Shown here: positions 6,964-12,903 of the stretch, one piece after another
Position numbering within the stretch: the first letter of the stretch is position 1
How the letters are laid out: each line of letters starts with the position of its first letter
Source: an uncultured Winogradskyella sp.
Lineage (GTDB): Bacteria > Bacteroidota > Bacteroidia > Flavobacteriales > Flavobacteriaceae
Assembly: GCF_947496485.1 (NCBI RefSeq)
Contig: NZ_CANMCZ010000001.1
Coordinates: 801,596-865,595 of the forward strand
Direction: 5' to 3'
DNA length: 64,000 bases
Made by a program: the position numbers and the translations under genes
Notes under the pieces: model-generated
The model's database searches: none
Seen by the model: the letters and a program-made list of their open reading frames with translations, nothing else
What the model was told of the DNA's origin: nothing

Positions 6964-8415
6964 TTAACTTTTTGTTCTTATTCTAATTTCATTTAAAGAC
7001 TCATTAAGTATTAATTTCCCATCACGAAACACCTCTTTTAACTCACCTTCTTGTTCTTCGTTCCAAGATACTTGATCCAATAACTTATATACTCCATTAT
7101 GTTTTTCAATCTTAACTAATCCTTTTGCAGATTTCTTGGTACCATCATCGGTAATTGGGTCTTTATAGATTTCTCTACCTGCACCGTTAACTTCGCCATA
7201 AGTTGCCTTCATAGCAAAACCAAAAGTATCGCGTGTATTATATTGATATGTGAATGAACCGATTCCTAAAACCACATTTGTTGATGCGAAGCCTTTTTGT
7301 TTTAAACGTTCACAGATTTGTTTTGCTCTGTCTAAAGTGATACTGTCACCATAAATAGCACCTATGTGCGAATCGAGTTCTTTATAACCTTTAGTATTTG
7401 TTGTACCACCAAAAGTTTCCCAAAGTAGCTGTATAACTCCTTTTCTCTCTTCTTGAGTTTTGCCGTTAGGATTTCCACATACTATATCCACTGGGTCACC
7501 TGAATCTGGACGTATAACTACTTTTCCCTCTCTAGCTAATACCTCATTTTTGAGATTTGGTAAATACTCAGTTAGCACTTTCCATAGATCCCAAGTATCA
7601 GAAACTATAGATACAATTCCATTAGGATACACTTCAGTAATTAGACGTTTAAAAGTTTCCTGTTCGCCTAAATTTGTTCCCATACACATTACGGAATGTT
7701 CTGTTGCTGCTACAGAACCACCAACTAAATCTGTATCTGAATTTGCATTATAGTAAGTCTCCAAAAAGTCAATTGCTGGTATAGTATCAGTACCTGTAAA
7801 ACTTAACAGATGACCAGCAGCAGACATTACTGCAGCTTCTAATCCTGCCATACCTCGCATTGAGAAATCATGGCCTTGCCAATCTACAAATTCTTGTATA
7901 GACGATGTTTCTTCAGCATAATTGTCTAATATTTTGCGATACTCTTTTGCAATCGTTGCTGAGTTACATGGCATCCAAAGTGTCGTTGATAATATGGTTT
8001 CGAAATAGTTGGTTAACCAGAAAAATTCTGGTTTGGTATTATACATAGTTACCATTGGTACCCTAATTGGCACTTGTGTTCCTTCTGGCAACGCTTTAAT
8101 TACCATTGGCAAATAACCTAAATCGTGTAGGGCTTCAATGTGTTCTATACCAACTTGGTTTTGACCTAAATAATTATTAATTCGTCTTGTATAGCGTTTA
8201 CAAATCTCTTCCTTCGGTTGATTGAAAAAATTAGTATTAAAATCTTCAATCATGTATTTTTTGATGAAATATTGTAGTCCAAAAAAGACAACGTCTTCTA
8301 CTCCTTCTATTCTGCTTTTTCTTGGTGTCCAGTTAGAGTATACTAATGTTGTACCTTCTGGATATTGTCTTCTATGATCTACTTTGTAACCGTCTGTGTA
8401 TAATAATGGGTTCAT
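6964..8415 (-). CDS. nadV: nicotinamide phosphoribosyltransferase
   Basis: A 483-residue NAMPT/NadV-type enzyme that makes NMN from nicotinamide and PRPP in the cytoplasm. Visible family marks are LLYTDGYKVDHRRQYPEGT at the N-terminus, WQGHDFSMRGMAG near 180 and VSDTWDLWKV with VVIRPDSGDPVD near 270-310, the phosphoribosyl site. Length matches NAMPT and is longer than bacterial nicotinate PRTs. It is last in the NAD island and has its own promoter with two palindromic operators (8426-8502), matching those before prs. It would recycle the nicotinamide released by NAD-consuming enzymes in the same island. Confidence 0.92.
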   Translation of the reverse strand: MNPLLYTDGYKVDHRRQYPEGTTLVYSNWTPRKSRIEGVEDVVFFGLQYFIKKYMIEDFNTNFFNQPKEEICKRYTRRINNYLGQNQVGIEHIEALHDLGYLPMVIKALPEGTQVPIRVPMVTMYNTKPEFFWLTNYFETILSTTLWMPCNSATIAKEYRKILDNYAEETSSIQEFVDWQGHDFSMRGMAGLEAAVMSAAGHLLSFTGTDTIPAIDFLETYYNANSDTDLVGGSVAATEHSVMCMGTNLGEQETFKRLITEVYPNGIVSIVSDTWDLWKVLTEYLPNLKNEVLAREGKVVIRPDSGDPVDIVCGNPNGKTQEERKGVIQLLWETFGGTTNTKGYKELDSHIGAIYGDSITLDRAKQICERLKQKGFASTNVVLGIGSFTYQYNTRDTFGFAMKATYGEVNGAGREIYKDPITDDGTKKSAKGLVKIEKHNGVYKLLDQVSWNEEQEGELKEVFRDGKLILNESLNEIRIRTKS

Positions 8416-8425
8416 AATATTTAAT

Positions 8426-8444
8426 TTGCGTAATTATTACACAA
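8426..8444. promoter_or_regulatory. NrtR-type operator, proximal to nadV
   Basis: TTGCGTAA-TTA-TTACACAA, arms matching at 7 of 8 positions, centre 8435. It overlaps the end of the -7 box at 8442-8449, so a bound regulator would block transcription. The centre lies 7 bp from the -7 box edge, exactly as at the prs and nrtR promoters. Assignment to NrtR is by context. Confidence 0.8.
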
Positions 8445-8471
8445 ATATAAATTAGAAATAATTATAAACAA
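8442..8471 (-). promoter_or_regulatory. nadV promoter
   Basis: On the minus strand, TTG (8471-8469), 19 bp, then TATATTTG (8449-8442), an exact TAnnTTTG box. The -7 box is shared with the proximal operator and the -33 box abuts the distal operator. Confidence 0.75.
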
Positions 8472-8502
8472 AATATTTTGCGTAATTTTTACGCAAAATA
8501 TT
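8472..8502. promoter_or_regulatory. NrtR-type operator, distal to nadV (perfect 31-bp palindrome)
   Basis: Perfect 14-bp arms AATATTTTGCGTAA and TTACGCAAAATATT around TTT, centre 8487. It is 52 bp from the proximal operator centre, the same spacing as at prs. It sits just upstream of the -33 box. Confidence 0.8.
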
Positions 8503-8525
8503 AAATAAACTTCATTAAAAGATTA

Positions 8526-9260
8526 TTAATTCTTATTTCTCCCCAGTTCGTTAGGATATAAATCCTTAACGATATCACTTTGAAAAACTTGTTTAGTATC
8601 AATATCCATAGCAGATAATCTACCCGTAAAAGCAGCACCCGTATCTACATTCCAAACATTAGCAGCATTCATTGGATGCATTTTGAAATAATTGATTGTT
8701 GGTGTATGTCCAATATAAATTTCCTTATAATGTTTGAGTCTGTTTGGGTATAATGCTGAGTTCTTTGCGATGCGTTTATCCATAGTCAAAGCCATTTCCC
8801 AAAGCGTTCTATCAAAATAGAAAATCTGAACATTAAACTCTTTTTCTACTCCATGCATTGAGGTAAAACCTGCGTGAACAAATAGCCGTTTTTGATCATC
8901 GATATGATACATGTCCATAGCTTCAAAGAAGCTCAGATGTGCTTTCTTTTCGTCTTCAGAAAAACCAGCATAACTTTCTATAGTTTCTTTTCCACCATGT
9001 TGATACCAAACTTCATTCACAAATCCAGATGCCAACCATTCTTCACACCAAGCATCGTGATTCCCTTTTATAAAAATACATGTATTGGATTTTGATAAGT
9101 CTATTAAATATGCAATCACTTGAGCAGATTCGCTCCAACCATCTACATAGTCTCCTACGAAAATGAGTTTATCGTCTTCTCTAATTTGAAATTCTTTAAG
9201 TAATTGTTTTAAGGCTTTTAATCCTCCATGTATGTCTCCTATGGCTAGTGTTCTTTTCAT
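8526..9260 (-). CDS. PPP-family metallophosphoesterase
   Basis: 244 residues with the metallophosphoesterase motifs in order: AIGDIHGG (near 6), FVGDYVDGW (near 34), IKGNHDAW (near 65), and later histidines in FVHAGFTS and YIGHTPTINY. Such enzymes hydrolyse phosphomonoesters or diadenosine/ADP-ribose-type phosphates with two metal ions. Placement between an oxygenase and nadV, in an operon with macrodomain and KptA genes, suggests a nucleotide product such as ADP-ribose 1''-phosphate; that is inference. The start overlaps the upstream gene by 4 bp (ATGA), indicating translational coupling. A protein phosphatase role is possible. Confidence 0.85.
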   Translation of the reverse strand: MKRTLAIGDIHGGLKALKQLLKEFQIREDDKLIFVGDYVDGWSESAQVIAYLIDLSKSNTCIFIKGNHDAWCEEWLASGFVNEVWYQHGGKETIESYAGFSEDEKKAHLSFFEAMDMYHIDDQKRLFVHAGFTSMHGVEKEFNVQIFYFDRTLWEMALTMDKRIAKNSALYPNRLKHYKEIYIGHTPTINYFKMHPMNAANVWNVDTGAAFTGRLSAMDIDTKQVFQSDIVKDLYPNELGRNKN

Positions 9261-9808
9261 TCTTCTAATTTATACATTACATCTGTACGCAACACATATT
9301 TTACTCCAGAAATTATTTCTTTCCCTTCATGTCGATAAGGATGCTGAAATATAAGTGCTGTTCCTTTTTTAGGGACAACAGTTTCTAACTTCCTAAATTC
9401 AGTTTCACCTCCTTCAAAATCATCATTTAAATAAATAATAAATGAAAAGAAGCTACACTCTTTATCGTTTCTCTGGTAGCTTCCATCTCGATGCATTTTA
9501 AAACGCTGTCCTTCAGTATAACGATAAATTCTAAACATTTCGTTTAAATTTAAAGCCGTATATATTCCCTTTTTTTTCGGCATAAACGGCTGCACACGCT
9601 GCCAAAGGTCATCTGCTAAATCCTGGTTAAAAAACAACAGTCTATCATTATTTCGCACACCTTTGTTCATCACTTGTGAGCCATGAATACTAATTTTAGC
9701 CTCTTCAAACTCTTGCGAATTTCCGAAATTTATATAGTGATCACACTCTTCTGAGGTTAAAAAATCTTCAACTAAAAATAAGTCCTTATGTAATTCTATT
9801 TTTTTCAT
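9257..9808 (-). CDS. 2-oxoglutarate/Fe(II)-dependent oxygenase (prolyl 4-hydroxylase type)
   Basis: 183 residues with the double-stranded beta-helix signature: MHRDGSY supplies the HxD iron ligands near residue 97, YLNDDFEGGETEF the core strands, HPYRHEGKEI the distal histidine near 156, and VKYVLRTDVMY the 2-oxoglutarate-binding Arg. Family members hydroxylate proteins, peptides or nucleic acids. The substrate here is unknown. It sits between the broken kptA and the phosphoesterase gene, overlapping the latter by 4 bp, which suggests a modification step tied to NAD/ADP-ribose or RNA metabolism. No signal peptide, so cytoplasmic. Confidence 0.85.
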   Translation of the reverse strand: MKKIELHKDLFLVEDFLTSEECDHYINFGNSQEFEEAKISIHGSQVMNKGVRNNDRLLFFNQDLADDLWQRVQPFMPKKKGIYTALNLNEMFRIYRYTEGQRFKMHRDGSYQRNDKECSFFSFIIYLNDDFEGGETEFRKLETVVPKKGTALIFQHPYRHEGKEIISGVKYVLRTDVMYKLEE

Positions 9809-9809
9809 A

Positions 9810-10356
9810 TCACTTAAATTCTATAAATTCTGAAGGCACATGTTCTGTTAACCACACATTATTTTCTGAACGATAAAACTTAAATCCCTTATCGTACATG
9901 TCTAAAGTTCTTATACTTAAAATTATTGGCACTCCTCGCCTACTTCCAACTTTGGTAGCCGTCTCTCTGTCTTCACTTAAATGCACGTGTTGCCTGCTGC
10001 GTTTTTGCAATCCCGAATGTTTAATAGAATCTATAAACTTCCCTACTGTGATGATATAAAAACGCTGGTGGTTGTATAGTTTCTAATTGTAAATCTATCG
10101 TTTTCACTGAATGACCTTGATTGGCTCTAATCATTGTTTGATCTTCATTAAATGCAAAACGTTGTTTATCATTAGTACTAACAATTTCGTTTAGCTCTTC
10201 CAAAGAAAAATTGACCTTCCTCGATTTTGCTTTTTCAATAAGCGCTTCGACATTGGCCCAACCATTTTCATTTAAGTCTAGATTTATATATTCTGGTCGA
10301 TGTCTTAACACCAAACTCAGAAATTTACTTATTTGTTTTTTATCTTTTTCATTCAT
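9810..10356 (-). pseudogene. kptA: RNA 2'-phosphotransferase (KptA/Tpt1), frameshifted
   Basis: The N-terminal half (from 10356) carries the KptA marks SKFLSLVLRHRPEY, NDKQRFAFNED and IRANQGHS, then reads through LYHHSREVYRFY to a stop at 10021. From about 10049 the next frame continues the family sequence: TVGKFIDSIKHSGLQ, RSRQHVHLS and FYRSENNVWL, to a stop at 9810. The break is at about 10050, where the expected Tyr-His-Gly-Thr is CAT-C-ACA, as if two bases (GG) were lost. Restored, the protein would be about 182 residues, the normal size. KptA moves a 2'-phosphate from RNA to NAD, giving ADP-ribose cyclic phosphate and nicotinamide. No homopolymer explains the shift, so either true decay or an assembly error is possible. 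Confidence 0.85.
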
Positions 10357-10865
10357 TTCAATAATTCTTTATATATCTGATAATTCTCATCATCAAAGCA
10401 TACAAAAATTACATCTTCAATTGTGCTACTTTTATAACTTGAAACTATCTCTACAGCAATTTCTGCTGCTAAATCTTTTGGAAATCTATAGATTCCTGTG
10501 CTAATGTTTGGAAAAGCTATCGATTTTAAATTAAACTCTTCTGCTAGTTTTATACTATTCAAATAGCAATTTGACAAATCTTGTTTTTCCTTTTCTAATC
10601 GCTTTCCTCCATTATACACAGGGCCAACAGTATGAATCACTTTTTTAGCAGGCAACTTACCTGCTGTTGTAATAACCGCTTCACCTGTTTTGCATTTTCC
10701 TTGTCGGTTTCTTATGTCACGACATTCGTCTAAAATTTGAGAACCACCAGCTCTGTGGATGGCTCCATCAACTCCACCTCCTCCAAGTAAAGATGAATTT
10801 GCAGCATTAACAATAGAATCAACTTCTATTTTTGTGATATCTCCTTTTATCACTTGAATTTTCAT
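10353..10865 (-). CDS. macrodomain protein (ADP-ribose/O-acetyl-ADP-ribose hydrolase type)
   Basis: A 170-residue stand-alone macrodomain: IKVIKGDIT-like start, [23 protein letters not shown] (residues about 20-45) with the catalytic-loop Asn and Asp, VIHTVGPVY near 76 and [12 protein letters not shown] near 118, the ADP-ribose phosphate loop. MacroD/YmdB-type enzymes remove ADP-ribose from proteins or nucleic acids, or deacetylate O-acetyl-ADP-ribose. It overlaps kptA and the ART-like gene by 4 bp each. It could clear the ADP-ribose products made by those neighbours. All recognised catalytic motifs are intact. Confidence 0.92.
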
Positions 10866-11281
10866 ATATTTTCTTTCAATCTTTCAATGCTCTCTTTCAC
10901 TAATTGATGCAGTGAACTCTTAAACTTTTCTCCAACAAAGACTCTAGTGATTTTTATGTCTCCAACAATAGCTTGATTAAAAACTTCTAAATCTTCTGCT
11001 GGAACCCATAACTCATTATGGATTTTGCCACCTACATTTTCAATCTTGTATTTTATAAACTCCTCTTCTGTAACATCAAATTCAGTCACAAAACCAAGAT
11101 AATTACCAAATTCATCGTTAGTATTCCACTTCGAAGCAATTTCAATAGCATATGCTTCATTTAGTACAGGATAAAATATGGGTTGTTGCTTTAAGCGTGG
11201 TGGGAATTTTTTAAATCCGCTTTCTGATATTAGAATTAACTCTTTCTCTCCTACAGGTCTATATAATTTTATTGTTCTCAT
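10862..11281 (-). CDS. ART-like protein of the 'ADP-ribosylation/crystallin J1' type
   Basis: 139 residues matching a small conserved family often labelled ADP-ribosylation/crystallin J1: [10 protein letters not shown] at the start, [16 protein letters not shown] near 27-42, WNTNDEFG near 52, [19 protein letters not shown] near 85-103. The pattern of an early Tyr-Arg, a central aromatic stretch and a late ELWVP glutamate is compatible with an ADP-ribosyltransferase-like fold, but I cannot prove activity. Four-base overlaps with prs and the macrodomain gene make it an integral operon member. It may be the writer that the macrodomain counteracts, or an NAD/ADP-ribose binder. Confidence 0.7.
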
Positions 11282-12117
11282 TTCATTAATTCTTTAAGTT
11301 TTATCTGCACAATACCTTCGCCATCAACACTCTTAAAACTATCTGTTGTATAAATTTTAGTAAAATATTTATTCAATCCTTCAAAACCTTTACTAAAAAT
11401 TCCATGACTAGCAGCCAAATACAATTTGCCAGCATTTTTCTTTTTTAATTCTTCTGCTAAACCGATAAAGGTTCCGCCTCCATCGCAAATATCATCAACT
11501 ATTAAACAGTCTTTTCCTGCTAAATCATCTTCATAGACTTTAAAGCCTTCAAGTTTTCCGTTTTTTACATTTCGCATTTTAGAACATTCTACAACTGGCA
11601 AACCACCTAAAAACTCTGATACTTTATAAATCTTTTTTAGTGCACCACCATCTGGCGAGATAAGATTGACTTCAGAATTTATTTCATTTATAATAGACTT
11701 AATAAATGTATGATTTGAAATCACTTTGCAATTATTAAGTAAAGCTGGAGTGACTTCAGAATGTGGATCGAAAACAATAACAGATTCAAAATGTAATCCA
11801 TTTATTAAATCTGCATAGACTTTAACTGTTAAGGATTCACCAGGAATCATCACACGATCTTGTCGCGCAGCAGGCATGTATGGCAAAAACAAGTGAATTG
11901 TTTTCGCATCCATTCTGCGTAATGCATCAACAGCAATTAACAGTAATCCCATATCATTAAATGATCGTATTCTTGTGGTCACAGTTACTTCATCAATAGC
12001 ATTTAAATCTGAAAGAATCTTAATATGTGGCTCACCTCCTGAAAATCTAAAACTTTCAAACTTAATGTTATTTTCTTTACCTAAAGGCTGAAACGAAGGG
12101 TCTAAATTTAAAATCAT
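11278..12117 (-). CDS. prs: ribose-phosphate pyrophosphokinase (PRPP synthetase), short form
   Basis: 279 residues, shorter than the usual 310-315 for housekeeping Prs. Motifs present are FLPYMPAARQDR near 87, FDPHSEV near 127 (the DPH metal site), CSKMRNVKNGKL near 185 (catalytic Lys-Met-Arg loop) and LIVDDICDGGGTFIG near 213 (PRPP loop). The usual N-terminal GN-type segment is altered. This short form resembles PRPP synthetases carried next to nadV in phage and accessory NAD-salvage modules. It makes PRPP, the co-substrate of NadV. It is first in the operon and has the same paired operators in its promoter as nadV. Confidence 0.9.
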   Translation of the reverse strand: MILNLDPSFQPLGKENNIKFESFRFSGGEPHIKILSDLNAIDEVTVTTRIRSFNDMGLLLIAVDALRRMDAKTIHLFLPYMPAARQDRVMIPGESLTVKVYADLINGLHFESVIVFDPHSEVTPALLNNCKVISNHTFIKSIINEINSEVNLISPDGGALKKIYKVSEFLGGLPVVECSKMRNVKNGKLEGFKVYEDDLAGKDCLIVDDICDGGGTFIGLAEELKKKNAGKLYLAASHGIFSKGFEGLNKYFTKIYTTDSFKSVDGEGIVQIKLKELMK

Positions 12118-12136
12118 TTGTGTTAATTTTACACAA
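12118..12136. promoter_or_regulatory. NrtR-type operator, proximal to prs
   Basis: TTGTGTTA-ATT-TTACACAA, 7 of 8 arm positions matching, centre 12127, immediately before the prs ATG. It overlaps the -7 box at 12134-12141. Position relative to the -7 box is identical to that at nadV and nrtR. Confidence 0.8.
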
Positions 12137-12163
12137 ATGTAAATTTAATAATTGTATTTACAA
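12134..12163 (-). promoter_or_regulatory. prs operon promoter
   Basis: On the minus strand, TTG (12163-12161), 19 bp, then TACATTTG (12141-12134), an exact TAnnTTTG match. Geometry is the same as at the nadV promoter. It drives the prs-to-phosphoesterase operon, and the predicted leader before the prs ATG is only about ten bases. Confidence 0.75.
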
Positions 12164-12168
12164 AATAT

Positions 12169-12189
12169 TTTGTGTAATTATTACACAAA
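12169..12189. promoter_or_regulatory. NrtR-type operator, distal to prs, overlapping the nrtR stop codon
   Basis: Perfect palindrome TTTGTGTAA-TTA-TTACACAAA, centre 12179, 52 bp from the proximal operator centre. Its downstream half covers the last codons and TAA stop of nrtR (stop at 12181-12183), so coding and operator functions share the same bases. Confidence 0.8.
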
Positions 12190-12873
12190 CTTAATATCAA
12201 AGTGGAAACCATCATCCACTAAAACATCATACTTTTTCTTGTTAAACTTGAAGAGTTTTGCAGGTCTGCCACTTCCTTCCTGATGCATTTTTTTGGTTTC
12301 TTCTAAAAAACCGAAGCTCATAATTTTTTTTCGAAAATTCCGTCTATCGATATCTTGACCAAGAATTGTAGAATATAAATGTTCTAAATCTGAAAATGGA
12401 AACTCAGTGTTAAGCAAATCAAAACCTATAGGTTGGTATAACAATTTTCCTTTCAGTCGTTTTTCAGCAGTTTGAAAAATGGTTTTATGATCAAAAGCTA
12501 ACTTAGGTAAGTCTTTTACCGGAAACCATTTGGCCTCTGCTGCATCTGTATCTGCTTTTATTTTAAAATGATTGGGACGGACTAATGCAAAATAACTAAC
12601 AGACACTACTCTATTTCTCGGATCTCTTTTTGGTTTTCCGAAAGTGTACAATTGCTCTAAATAATCAATCTTAACTCCTGTTTCTTCTTTTAATTCACGC
12701 TTTACAGCAGCTTCTAATGATTCATTTTCTAGTACCAATCCGCCAGGTAAAGCCCAAGCGTTTTTATAAGGTTCTACACCTCTTTTAATTAATAAAACTA
12801 ACAAATTGCCCTTAGATTCGTAGCCAAAAACCACAGCATCTACTGCAATTCTAATATTTTGATGTAATGTCAT
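12181..12873 (-). CDS. nrtR: NrtR, Nudix-domain repressor of NAD metabolism
   Basis: 230 residues: an N-terminal Nudix fold (about 5-145), then a winged-helix domain (about 150-230) with FRKKIMSFGFLEETKKMHQEG and GRPAKLFKFNKKKY, the NrtR hallmark. NrtR proteins bind ADP-ribose or related NAD products and then release DNA. The Nudix box GX5EX7REUXEEXGU is fully conserved here (GLVLENE...RELKEETGV), although many NrtR proteins have lost it, so residual ADP-ribose pyrophosphatase activity is possible. Operators lie before its own gene, before prs and before nadV. It has its own promoter and is upstream of the island it controls. Confidence 0.9.
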   Translation of the reverse strand: MTLHQNIRIAVDAVVFGYESKGNLLVLLIKRGVEPYKNAWALPGGLVLENESLEAAVKRELKEETGVKIDYLEQLYTFGKPKRDPRNRVVSVSYFALVRPNHFKIKADTDAAEAKWFPVKDLPKLAFDHKTIFQTAEKRLKGKLLYQPIGFDLLNTEFPFSDLEHLYSTILGQDIDRRNFRKKIMSFGFLEETKKMHQEGSGRPAKLFKFNKKKYDVLVDDGFHFDIKFV

Positions 12874-12879
12874 TTTGCT

Positions 12880-12903
12880 TTGTGTAGTATTAACACAAAT
12901 ATA
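12880..12903 (-). promoter_or_regulatory. nrtR promoter with autoregulatory operator
   Basis: Operator TTGTGTAG-TAT-TAACACAA (12880-12898, centre 12889; 6 of 8 arm positions pair) overlaps the box TATATTTG on the minus strand (12903-12896). Unlike nadV and prs there is no second operator 52 bp away and no TTG at 19 bp, so control is probably weaker. Confidence 0.6.

Follow-up and report, generated by a model that had tools for sequence, protein, structure and literature searches.

A predicted NrtR-controlled gene island of a Winogradskyella sp. with a probable NARP1 pair and putative ADP-ribose-processing enzymes

The window analysed here, a stretch of 64,000 nucleotides from an uncultured Winogradskyella sp. 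(NCBI RefSeq assembly GCF_947496485.1, contig NZ_CANMCZ010000001.1, positions 801,596 to 865,595), contains an island in which nrtR, prs, artL, a macrodomain gene, kptA, a 2-oxoglutarate (2OG) oxygenase gene, a metallophosphoesterase gene and nadV lie on the minus strand between positions 6964 and 12873. The island is reasonably likely to be an operon that responds to ADP-ribose, acts on ADP-ribose conjugates and turns ADP-ribose back into NAD+. We infer every enzymatic activity, together with the ligand, the artL target and the setting, which would be an NAD+-depleting or ADP-ribosylating attack. The proposal is built on directly established features: the gene content and its conservation, the operators, the Namat motif of NadV, the Adps-like sequence of Prs and the ADP-ribosyltransferase (ART) fold of an artL model. 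The initial annotation of the window had described eight genes in one direction forming an NrtR-controlled set that links the use of NAD to the processing of ADP-ribose and the recycling of nicotinamide. All eight were found in that orientation, with families confirmed for seven, and the operators and the recurrence of the set in relatives support the joint control.

In the proposed mechanism, NrtR would repress three promoters (those of nrtR, of the unit from prs to the phosphoesterase gene, and of nadV) at 21-base palindromes. NAD+ breakdown by an ART, KptA, a sirtuin or an NADase would yield nicotinamide and ADP-ribose conjugates, from which the macrodomain protein, and in relatives also PARG, ARH and NADAR, would free ADP-ribose, while the phosphoesterase may help to remove the phosphorylated ADP-ribose that KptA leaves behind. 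Once free, ADP-ribose would release NrtR from the operators, and Adps followed by Namat would take two steps to make NAD+ from ADP-ribose and nicotinamide. ArtL would ADP-ribosylate a target, perhaps RNA, and the hydrolases would reverse the mark.

If so, bacterial NARP1, the physiological role of which is stated to need further study (PMC12774641), would gain a regulator, a likely inducer and partner enzymes, and a sensor of ADP-ribose would be tied to a pathway expected to use it up. The gene set also suggests a purpose for the bacterial version of a shortcut, from ADP-ribose and nicotinamide to NAD+, that is best known from phages. Two candidate ART families, artL and DUF4291, are named, each often found beside the hydrolase type that erases the mark made by its nearest structural relative.

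The probable NARP1 pair and its predicted regulator NrtR

Compared with solved structures, the product of nadV (6964..8415) scores highest against 9w5x and 9w5w (~633 bits; 633.6 for 9w5x), followed by 9ke8 (475.7 bits), 6tac (250.7 bits) and other NAMPT entries with lower scores. 9W5X and 9W5W are crystal structures of the SPbetaL1 Namat, and the Namat clamp motif was defined in the same study (PMC12774641). This motif, GSX-Phi-X-Phi-X-Phi-TRD, is present in the window NadV as GSFTYQYNTRD, identical to that of SPbetaL1 Namat, while 6tac lacks its aromatic residues and 9ke8 has GAQTYQRNTRD there. Arg35 of the window NadV aligns with SCL Arg40, as counted by eye in the alignment. The strict motif fits 16 of the 18 bacterial NadV-like open reading frames (ORFs) examined, 15 of them with the exact GSFTYQYNTRD (L099 included) and L107 with a fitting variant. 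Among phage NadV-like ORFs, counted separately, L109 and L111 fit and L110 does not; identity to phage NadVs reaches 63%.

Three phage Prs-like proteins, whose genes adjoin NadV genes or lie close to them, share 31-40% identity with the island Prs (11278..12117), the SPbetaL1 one among them 33%, whereas nine housekeeping Prs share 21-24% with it. The nine were selected by the DTxGT loop pattern, which makes a contrast in that loop circular and leaves the identities unaffected. A separate housekeeping prs is present elsewhere in the same genome (350 bits, versus 140 bits for the island copy). Because of the Namat scores, the clamp motif and the Prs identities, the two genes are read as a bacterial NARP1 pair: "prs" probably encodes Adps, which would convert ADP-ribose to ADP-ribose pyrophosphate (ADPR-PP), and "nadV" probably encodes Namat, which would join ADPR-PP and nicotinamide to NAD+. 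The recycling step, which the initial annotation had assigned to NadV making nicotinamide mononucleotide (NMN) from phosphoribosyl pyrophosphate (PRPP), is thus probably carried out by Adps and Namat, as judged from the Namat motif and the Adps-like sequence. A bacterial NARP1, that of Paenibacillus foliorum, has been found to work (PMC12774641).

The product of nrtR (12181..12873) comprises a Nudix domain and a winged helix, with PF21906 (NrtR_WHD, 7.7e-24) and PF00293 (Nudix, 6.6e-23) both above cut-off, and it is the sole NrtR_WHD match in its genome. Five 21-base palindromes, predicted NrtR binding sites, head three units. One lies directly upstream of nrtR (12879..12899), a tandem pair upstream of prs (12169..12189, distal, and 12117..12137, proximal) and a second pair upstream of nadV (8477..8497, distal, and 8425..8445, proximal), the members of both pairs being 52 bases apart. 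A search of the window with the operator pattern returned 7 matches, both strands counted, at these five places against a shuffle mean of 0.02; the pattern was built from the five sites, which therefore show zero mismatches by construction. In the 4.1-Mb genome, exact copies are only the island's five and one-mismatch copies occur at two further places; the reversed-pattern control of this search was uninformative, the pattern being nearly palindromic. At related loci, nrtR is accompanied in 74/76 cases by a pair of operators with a spacing of 50-56 bases (54 or 52 in most), with no such pair in a single Markov control, and sites total 316 versus 26 in that control. As 54 of the 78 pairs precede NADAR, the control by NrtR seems to extend to ADP-ribose enzymes at places where neither prs nor nadV follows.

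ADP-ribose is the likely ligand of the window NrtR, judging from its residues. ADP-ribose suppresses the DNA binding of two NrtRs, and Arg41 and Arg98 of the Shewanella NrtR contact the ligand, the latter position being Gly in AraR (PMC4666351). The window NrtR retains equivalents of both arginines, in an alignment read by eye; RDxR occurs in all 76 related NrtRs, and in at least 73 of them RDPR is located where expected. The Nudix signature is impaired in NAD-type NrtRs (PMC4666351). In contrast, the Nudix box is intact in the window NrtR (translation read by eye) and in 74/76 related island NrtRs, both exceptions being short ORFs. Island NrtRs may hydrolyse ADP-ribose besides sensing it.

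Genes between the pair and their recurrence in relatives

From prs to the phosphoesterase gene, the 4-base overlaps reported by the initial annotation are present at four of five junctions; kptA and the oxygenase gene are instead parted by a 1-base gap. The macrodomain protein (10353..10865; PF01661, 8.7e-48) is of the MacroD type, that is, of the O-acetyl-ADP-ribose deacetylase or ADP-ribosylhydrolase type, with 5cb3 (2.9e-56) and MACROD2 4iqy (1.1e-45) among solved structures. The gene kptA is indeed frameshifted: the PF01885 match is divided between a first part (10021..10356; 1.3e-29, profile positions 2-106) and a second in a different frame (9810..10010; 5.3e-13, positions 121-176), with no full-length frame in the window. 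The split may have arisen by mutation or by an error of assembly. Of the 74 kptA ORFs in relatives, 72 encode 180-187 amino acids, and the other two only 125 and 145. The 2OG-Fe(II) oxygenase (9257..9808; PF13640, 3.5e-13) is nearest to prolyl 4-hydroxylases (3itq/5hv0, 4.6e-9). The calcineurin-like metallophosphoesterase (8526..9260; PF00149, 1.3e-17; 4j6o, 2.1e-10) resembles ApaH/PrpE (PRK00166, 4.5e-18) and bacterial Pnkp (TIGR04075, 1.3e-15), both under curated cut-offs, and the latter likeness presumably falls in the phosphatase part of Pnkp. The phosphoesterase may clear the ADP-ribose phosphates left by KptA; phosphatases have been proposed to process released ADP-ribose in ADP-ribosylglycohydrolase (ARG)-centred systems, with a calcineurin-like phosphatase among the partners (PMC9503650). 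The proposed mechanism gives no step to the oxygenase; the undescribed modification step to which the initial annotation had assigned oxygenase and phosphoesterase is a possibility. Beyond it, nadV starts after 110 bases, behind its own operator pair.

The same set recurs with variable additions at related loci, as the initial annotation had expected of a functional unit. These loci, all of which were used, are the best 80 of 112 relatives, and family counts in them are lower bounds, since some loci stop at contig ends. They contain nrtR (76), kptA (74), SIR2 (73), ARH (69), the phosphoesterase (67), Macro (62), NADAR (61), PARG (60), DUF4291 (53), the oxygenase (48), prs (9) and nadV (4), and in a count of twelve families all ORFs except one SIR2 are on the artL strand. 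Accessory genes in relatives include ARH, NADAR, PARG, a second Macro and SIR2. Comparison stretches picked by hand form a gradient of content, from nrtR-prs-nadV in L099 through nrtR-prs-SIR2/TPR-phosphoesterase-nadV in L093 (G574) to L103, where 21 matched genes separate nrtR from nadV; L016 (Edaphocola) has nrtR-prs-artL-phosphoesterase-nadV. The 637-residue SIR2-TPR protein of L093 (7775-9688) lies between prs and the phosphoesterase gene, in the slot held in the window by artL, the macrodomain gene, kptA and the oxygenase gene. In G226, which belongs to the genus of the window, the phosphoesterase gene is the only island gene found in the 13-kb stretch taken, where it lies beside genes that resemble, by eye, the flanks in the window.

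artL was found in 31/395 genomes of the order and in 10/296 genomes of the phylum. Of its 33 matches, at least 30 have a strong nrtR match at a distance of up to 20 kb, 26 are close to a phosphoesterase match and 18 to an oxygenase match; proximity to nrtR was judged against the 73 strongest nrtR matches only (E <= 1.1e-79), among the matches listed. Scattering of the oxygenase and phosphoesterase genes without NAD genes, which the initial annotation had named as a sign against a joint system, is seen for the phosphoesterase, while the oxygenase is nearly confined to islands (near a strong nrtR match in at least 28 of 31 cases in the 395 genomes).

artL, PARG and DUF4291

The small protein ArtL (10862..11281) belongs to a family that no Pfam, NCBIfam, PHROG or PADLOC model matches. 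Its structural model has an ART-like fold, with RhsP2 nearest on structure re-alignment. As Foldseek against the PDB returned nothing at E <= 0.001, the ART reading rests on this re-alignment, which covered only families in that Foldseek list, and on the ART names that head the list. Against BFVD, the single Foldseek match at E <= 0.001 was to a protein of phage annotated with a GIY-YIG_UPF0213 domain (E 1.9e-5, TMq 0.57). Residues R8, Y37, Y44 and E90, candidate catalytic residues, are invariant in 41/41 sequences. ArtL probably transfers ADP-ribose, perhaps to RNA. A phage origin of artL was considered, and no close relative was confirmed in the viral contigs searched. One island, L103 (G289), holds two artL paralogues, 54% and 43% identical to the window ArtL.

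artL and PARG are fused in 23/80 and adjacent (gap of -20 to 200 bases) in 25/80 related loci, 48/80 together; PARG lies elsewhere or beside an incomplete artL ORF in 12, and 20 have no PARG. Models of ArtL and DUF4291 both match RhsP2 best, and PARG stands beside both in many relatives. RhsP2 is an RNA 2'-OH ADP-ribosyltransferase, and PARG is the only hydrolase type described as reversing that mark, which a MacroD-type enzyme failed to remove (PMC11833690). Unlike RhsP2 as described there, artL and DUF4291 encode standalone or PARG-fused chromosomal proteins, with a putative RNA target. No publication naming DUF4291 turned up in the literature searched. It is conceivable, if rather unlikely, that flavobacteria use an endogenous, reversible RNA 2'-OH ADP-ribosylation in which artL and DUF4291 would write, PARG and other hydrolases would erase, NARP1 would rebuild NAD+ and ADP-ribose would induce through NrtR.

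Another view takes the island as a writer-eraser unit, toxin-antitoxin-like or for signalling, in which ArtL, and in relatives also DUF4291, would ADP-ribosylate RNA or protein, macrodomain or PARG enzymes would reverse the mark and NARP1 would repay the NAD+. This is a possibility, though not a likely one. Against it, artL was not found in islands L100, L101 and L105, which keep other ADP-ribose enzymes, its invariant residues are only candidates for an active site, and the window macrodomain is of the MacroD type, an enzyme of which left 2'-OH marks in place (PMC11833690).

Alternative readings and known systems

Several observations weigh against an ADP-ribose-recycling operon. The best solved relative of the window NrtR is the arabinose regulator AraR (165 bits), ahead of 3gz5 (114.6 bits), which we take to be the Shewanella NrtR. 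Two of the 18 bacterial NadV-like ORFs miss the strict clamp motif; that of L139 (G342), GSYTYQYKTRD, is one position off, and the L007 NadV-like ORF, encoded beside an artL relative, has no clamp motif. Moreover, Namat can convert PRPP to NMN as well in vitro (PMC12774641), so the substrate used in vivo is not proven by motif and homology. At E <= 1e-30, 19 of the 30 genomes searched (all 18 chosen from genus g12, plus G226) gave no NadV match, which indicates that NARP1 is absent from some islands; 17 of the 18 NadV-less g12 genomes nevertheless carry artL near nrtR. These 30 genomes, too, were hand-picked, and genome and locus counts partly overlap. Among the nrtR matches listed, a strong one lies near the phosphoesterase in 47 of 122 cases and not in the other 75, that of G226 being one of those outside. 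The window itself is without a PARG-artL pair, and a PF10021 (PARG) search of its genome gave no match, as did the controls of that search. Finally, 70 of the 80 related loci are from Chryseobacterium, so counts over them are not independent. The closed NAD-use loop of the initial annotation is accordingly retained in part: since the recycling step is probably Adps plus Namat, the loop would close on ADP-ribose, the likely NrtR ligand, but strict closure does not extend to the genomes in which NadV was not found. A protein resembling NadR by eye (Pfam AAA_28 and CTP_transf_like) occurs at L059:14894-15892 and in 4/80 loci altogether; it might stand in for NARP1 at loci that lack nadV.

The island may alternatively be a defence or counter-defence locus, in which NARP1 is shared with phages, NADases and ADP-ribosylhydrolases serve as exchangeable cargo, and the host is protected during NAD+-depleting immunity. 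This reading is entertained tentatively. The SIR2-TPR protein in the cargo slot of L093 matches PADLOC SIR2 models of Argonaute systems, the cargo varies strongly between relatives, and the identity to phage NadVs is in keeping with sharing. In contrast, no close artL relative was confirmed in viral contigs, and in PADLOC neither artL nor NadV has a match, while the oxygenase matches a generic 2OG model and the phosphoesterase and prs match models weakly.

Ordinary NrtR-regulated nicotinamide salvage, with prs supplying PRPP, nadV making NMN and the other genes being loosely attached NAD users, would agree with the family annotations of prs and nadV, with PRPP-dependent NMN synthesis by Namat in vitro (PMC12774641) and with the minimal nrtR-prs-nadV set of L099. 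It is judged improbable: the exact Namat clamp motif is found in the window and 14 other NadVs, that of L099 included, and the divergence of the island Prs from housekeeping Prs, a complete gene for which lies elsewhere, adds to the Namat scores in weakening the assignment of the two genes as plain PRPP and NMN enzymes. An RNA-repair operon around KptA and a Pnkp-like phosphatase, with NAD genes merely feeding KptA, is just as doubtful, for although kptA is, after nrtR, the gene found in most loci (74/80) and the phosphoesterase resembles the Pnkp phosphatase part under cut-off, there is no RNA ligase among the family matches of the window operon, the window has a broken kptA and none was found in L093, L099 and L016, where nrtR, prs and nadV remain, and many accessory genes encode ADP-ribosylhydrolases.

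The proposed recycling operon resembles known systems in parts. It shares with NARP1 of phage and Paenibacillus foliorum (PMC12774641) a homologous pair, an exact Namat clamp motif and an Adps-like divergent Prs, but the two window genes are parted by conjugate-processing cargo and are under NrtR. The nearest described kind is that of predicted ARG-centred host systems against viral ADP-ribosylation, which likewise feature a Nudix HTH regulator, ADP-ribosylhydrolases, calcineurin-like and other phosphatases, Macro, NADAR and exchangeable modules; vWA proteins are perhaps also common to both, in relatives (by eye, with no Pfam match). The criterion in the search for those systems was that no ART or sirtuin be coupled to them, and they are described from lineages including actinobacteria, planctomycetes and proteobacteria (PMC9503650). 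Unlike them, the window and its relatives carry ART-fold, KptA and SIR2 proteins as putative writers together with NARP1, in Bacteroidota: artL and kptA are present in the window and SIR2 in 73/80 relatives. Of the ADP-ribosylglycohydrolase core, no ARH is among the Pfam matches of the window operon, while 69/80 relatives have one. In NrtR regulons of NAD metabolism, NrtR controls NAD synthesis genes through palindromes. Here, genes for ADP-ribose processing have such operators in front of them as well, even in relatives in which no nadV was found, and the island NrtRs differ from the NAD-type ones in the intact Nudix box noted above (PMC4666351). No publication joining NARP1 with NrtR and ADP-ribosylhydrolases was found in the freely accessible literature searched; earlier notice in Rodionov 2008 or de Souza and Aravind 2012 is possible.

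Two further gene groups were observed at related loci. A small protein, a vWA-like protein (by eye; no Pfam match; PHROG 2971, function unknown) and an adenylosuccinate-synthetase-like enzyme form a unit at L023:6861-8830 and similar places, which is present in 47-53/80 loci and also in the NARP1 islands L100, L102, L103 and L105. At L021:7988-9996, an SPFH/Band 7 protein adjoins an NAD-kinase-like protein (by eye; no Pfam match), an arrangement found in 16/80 loci.

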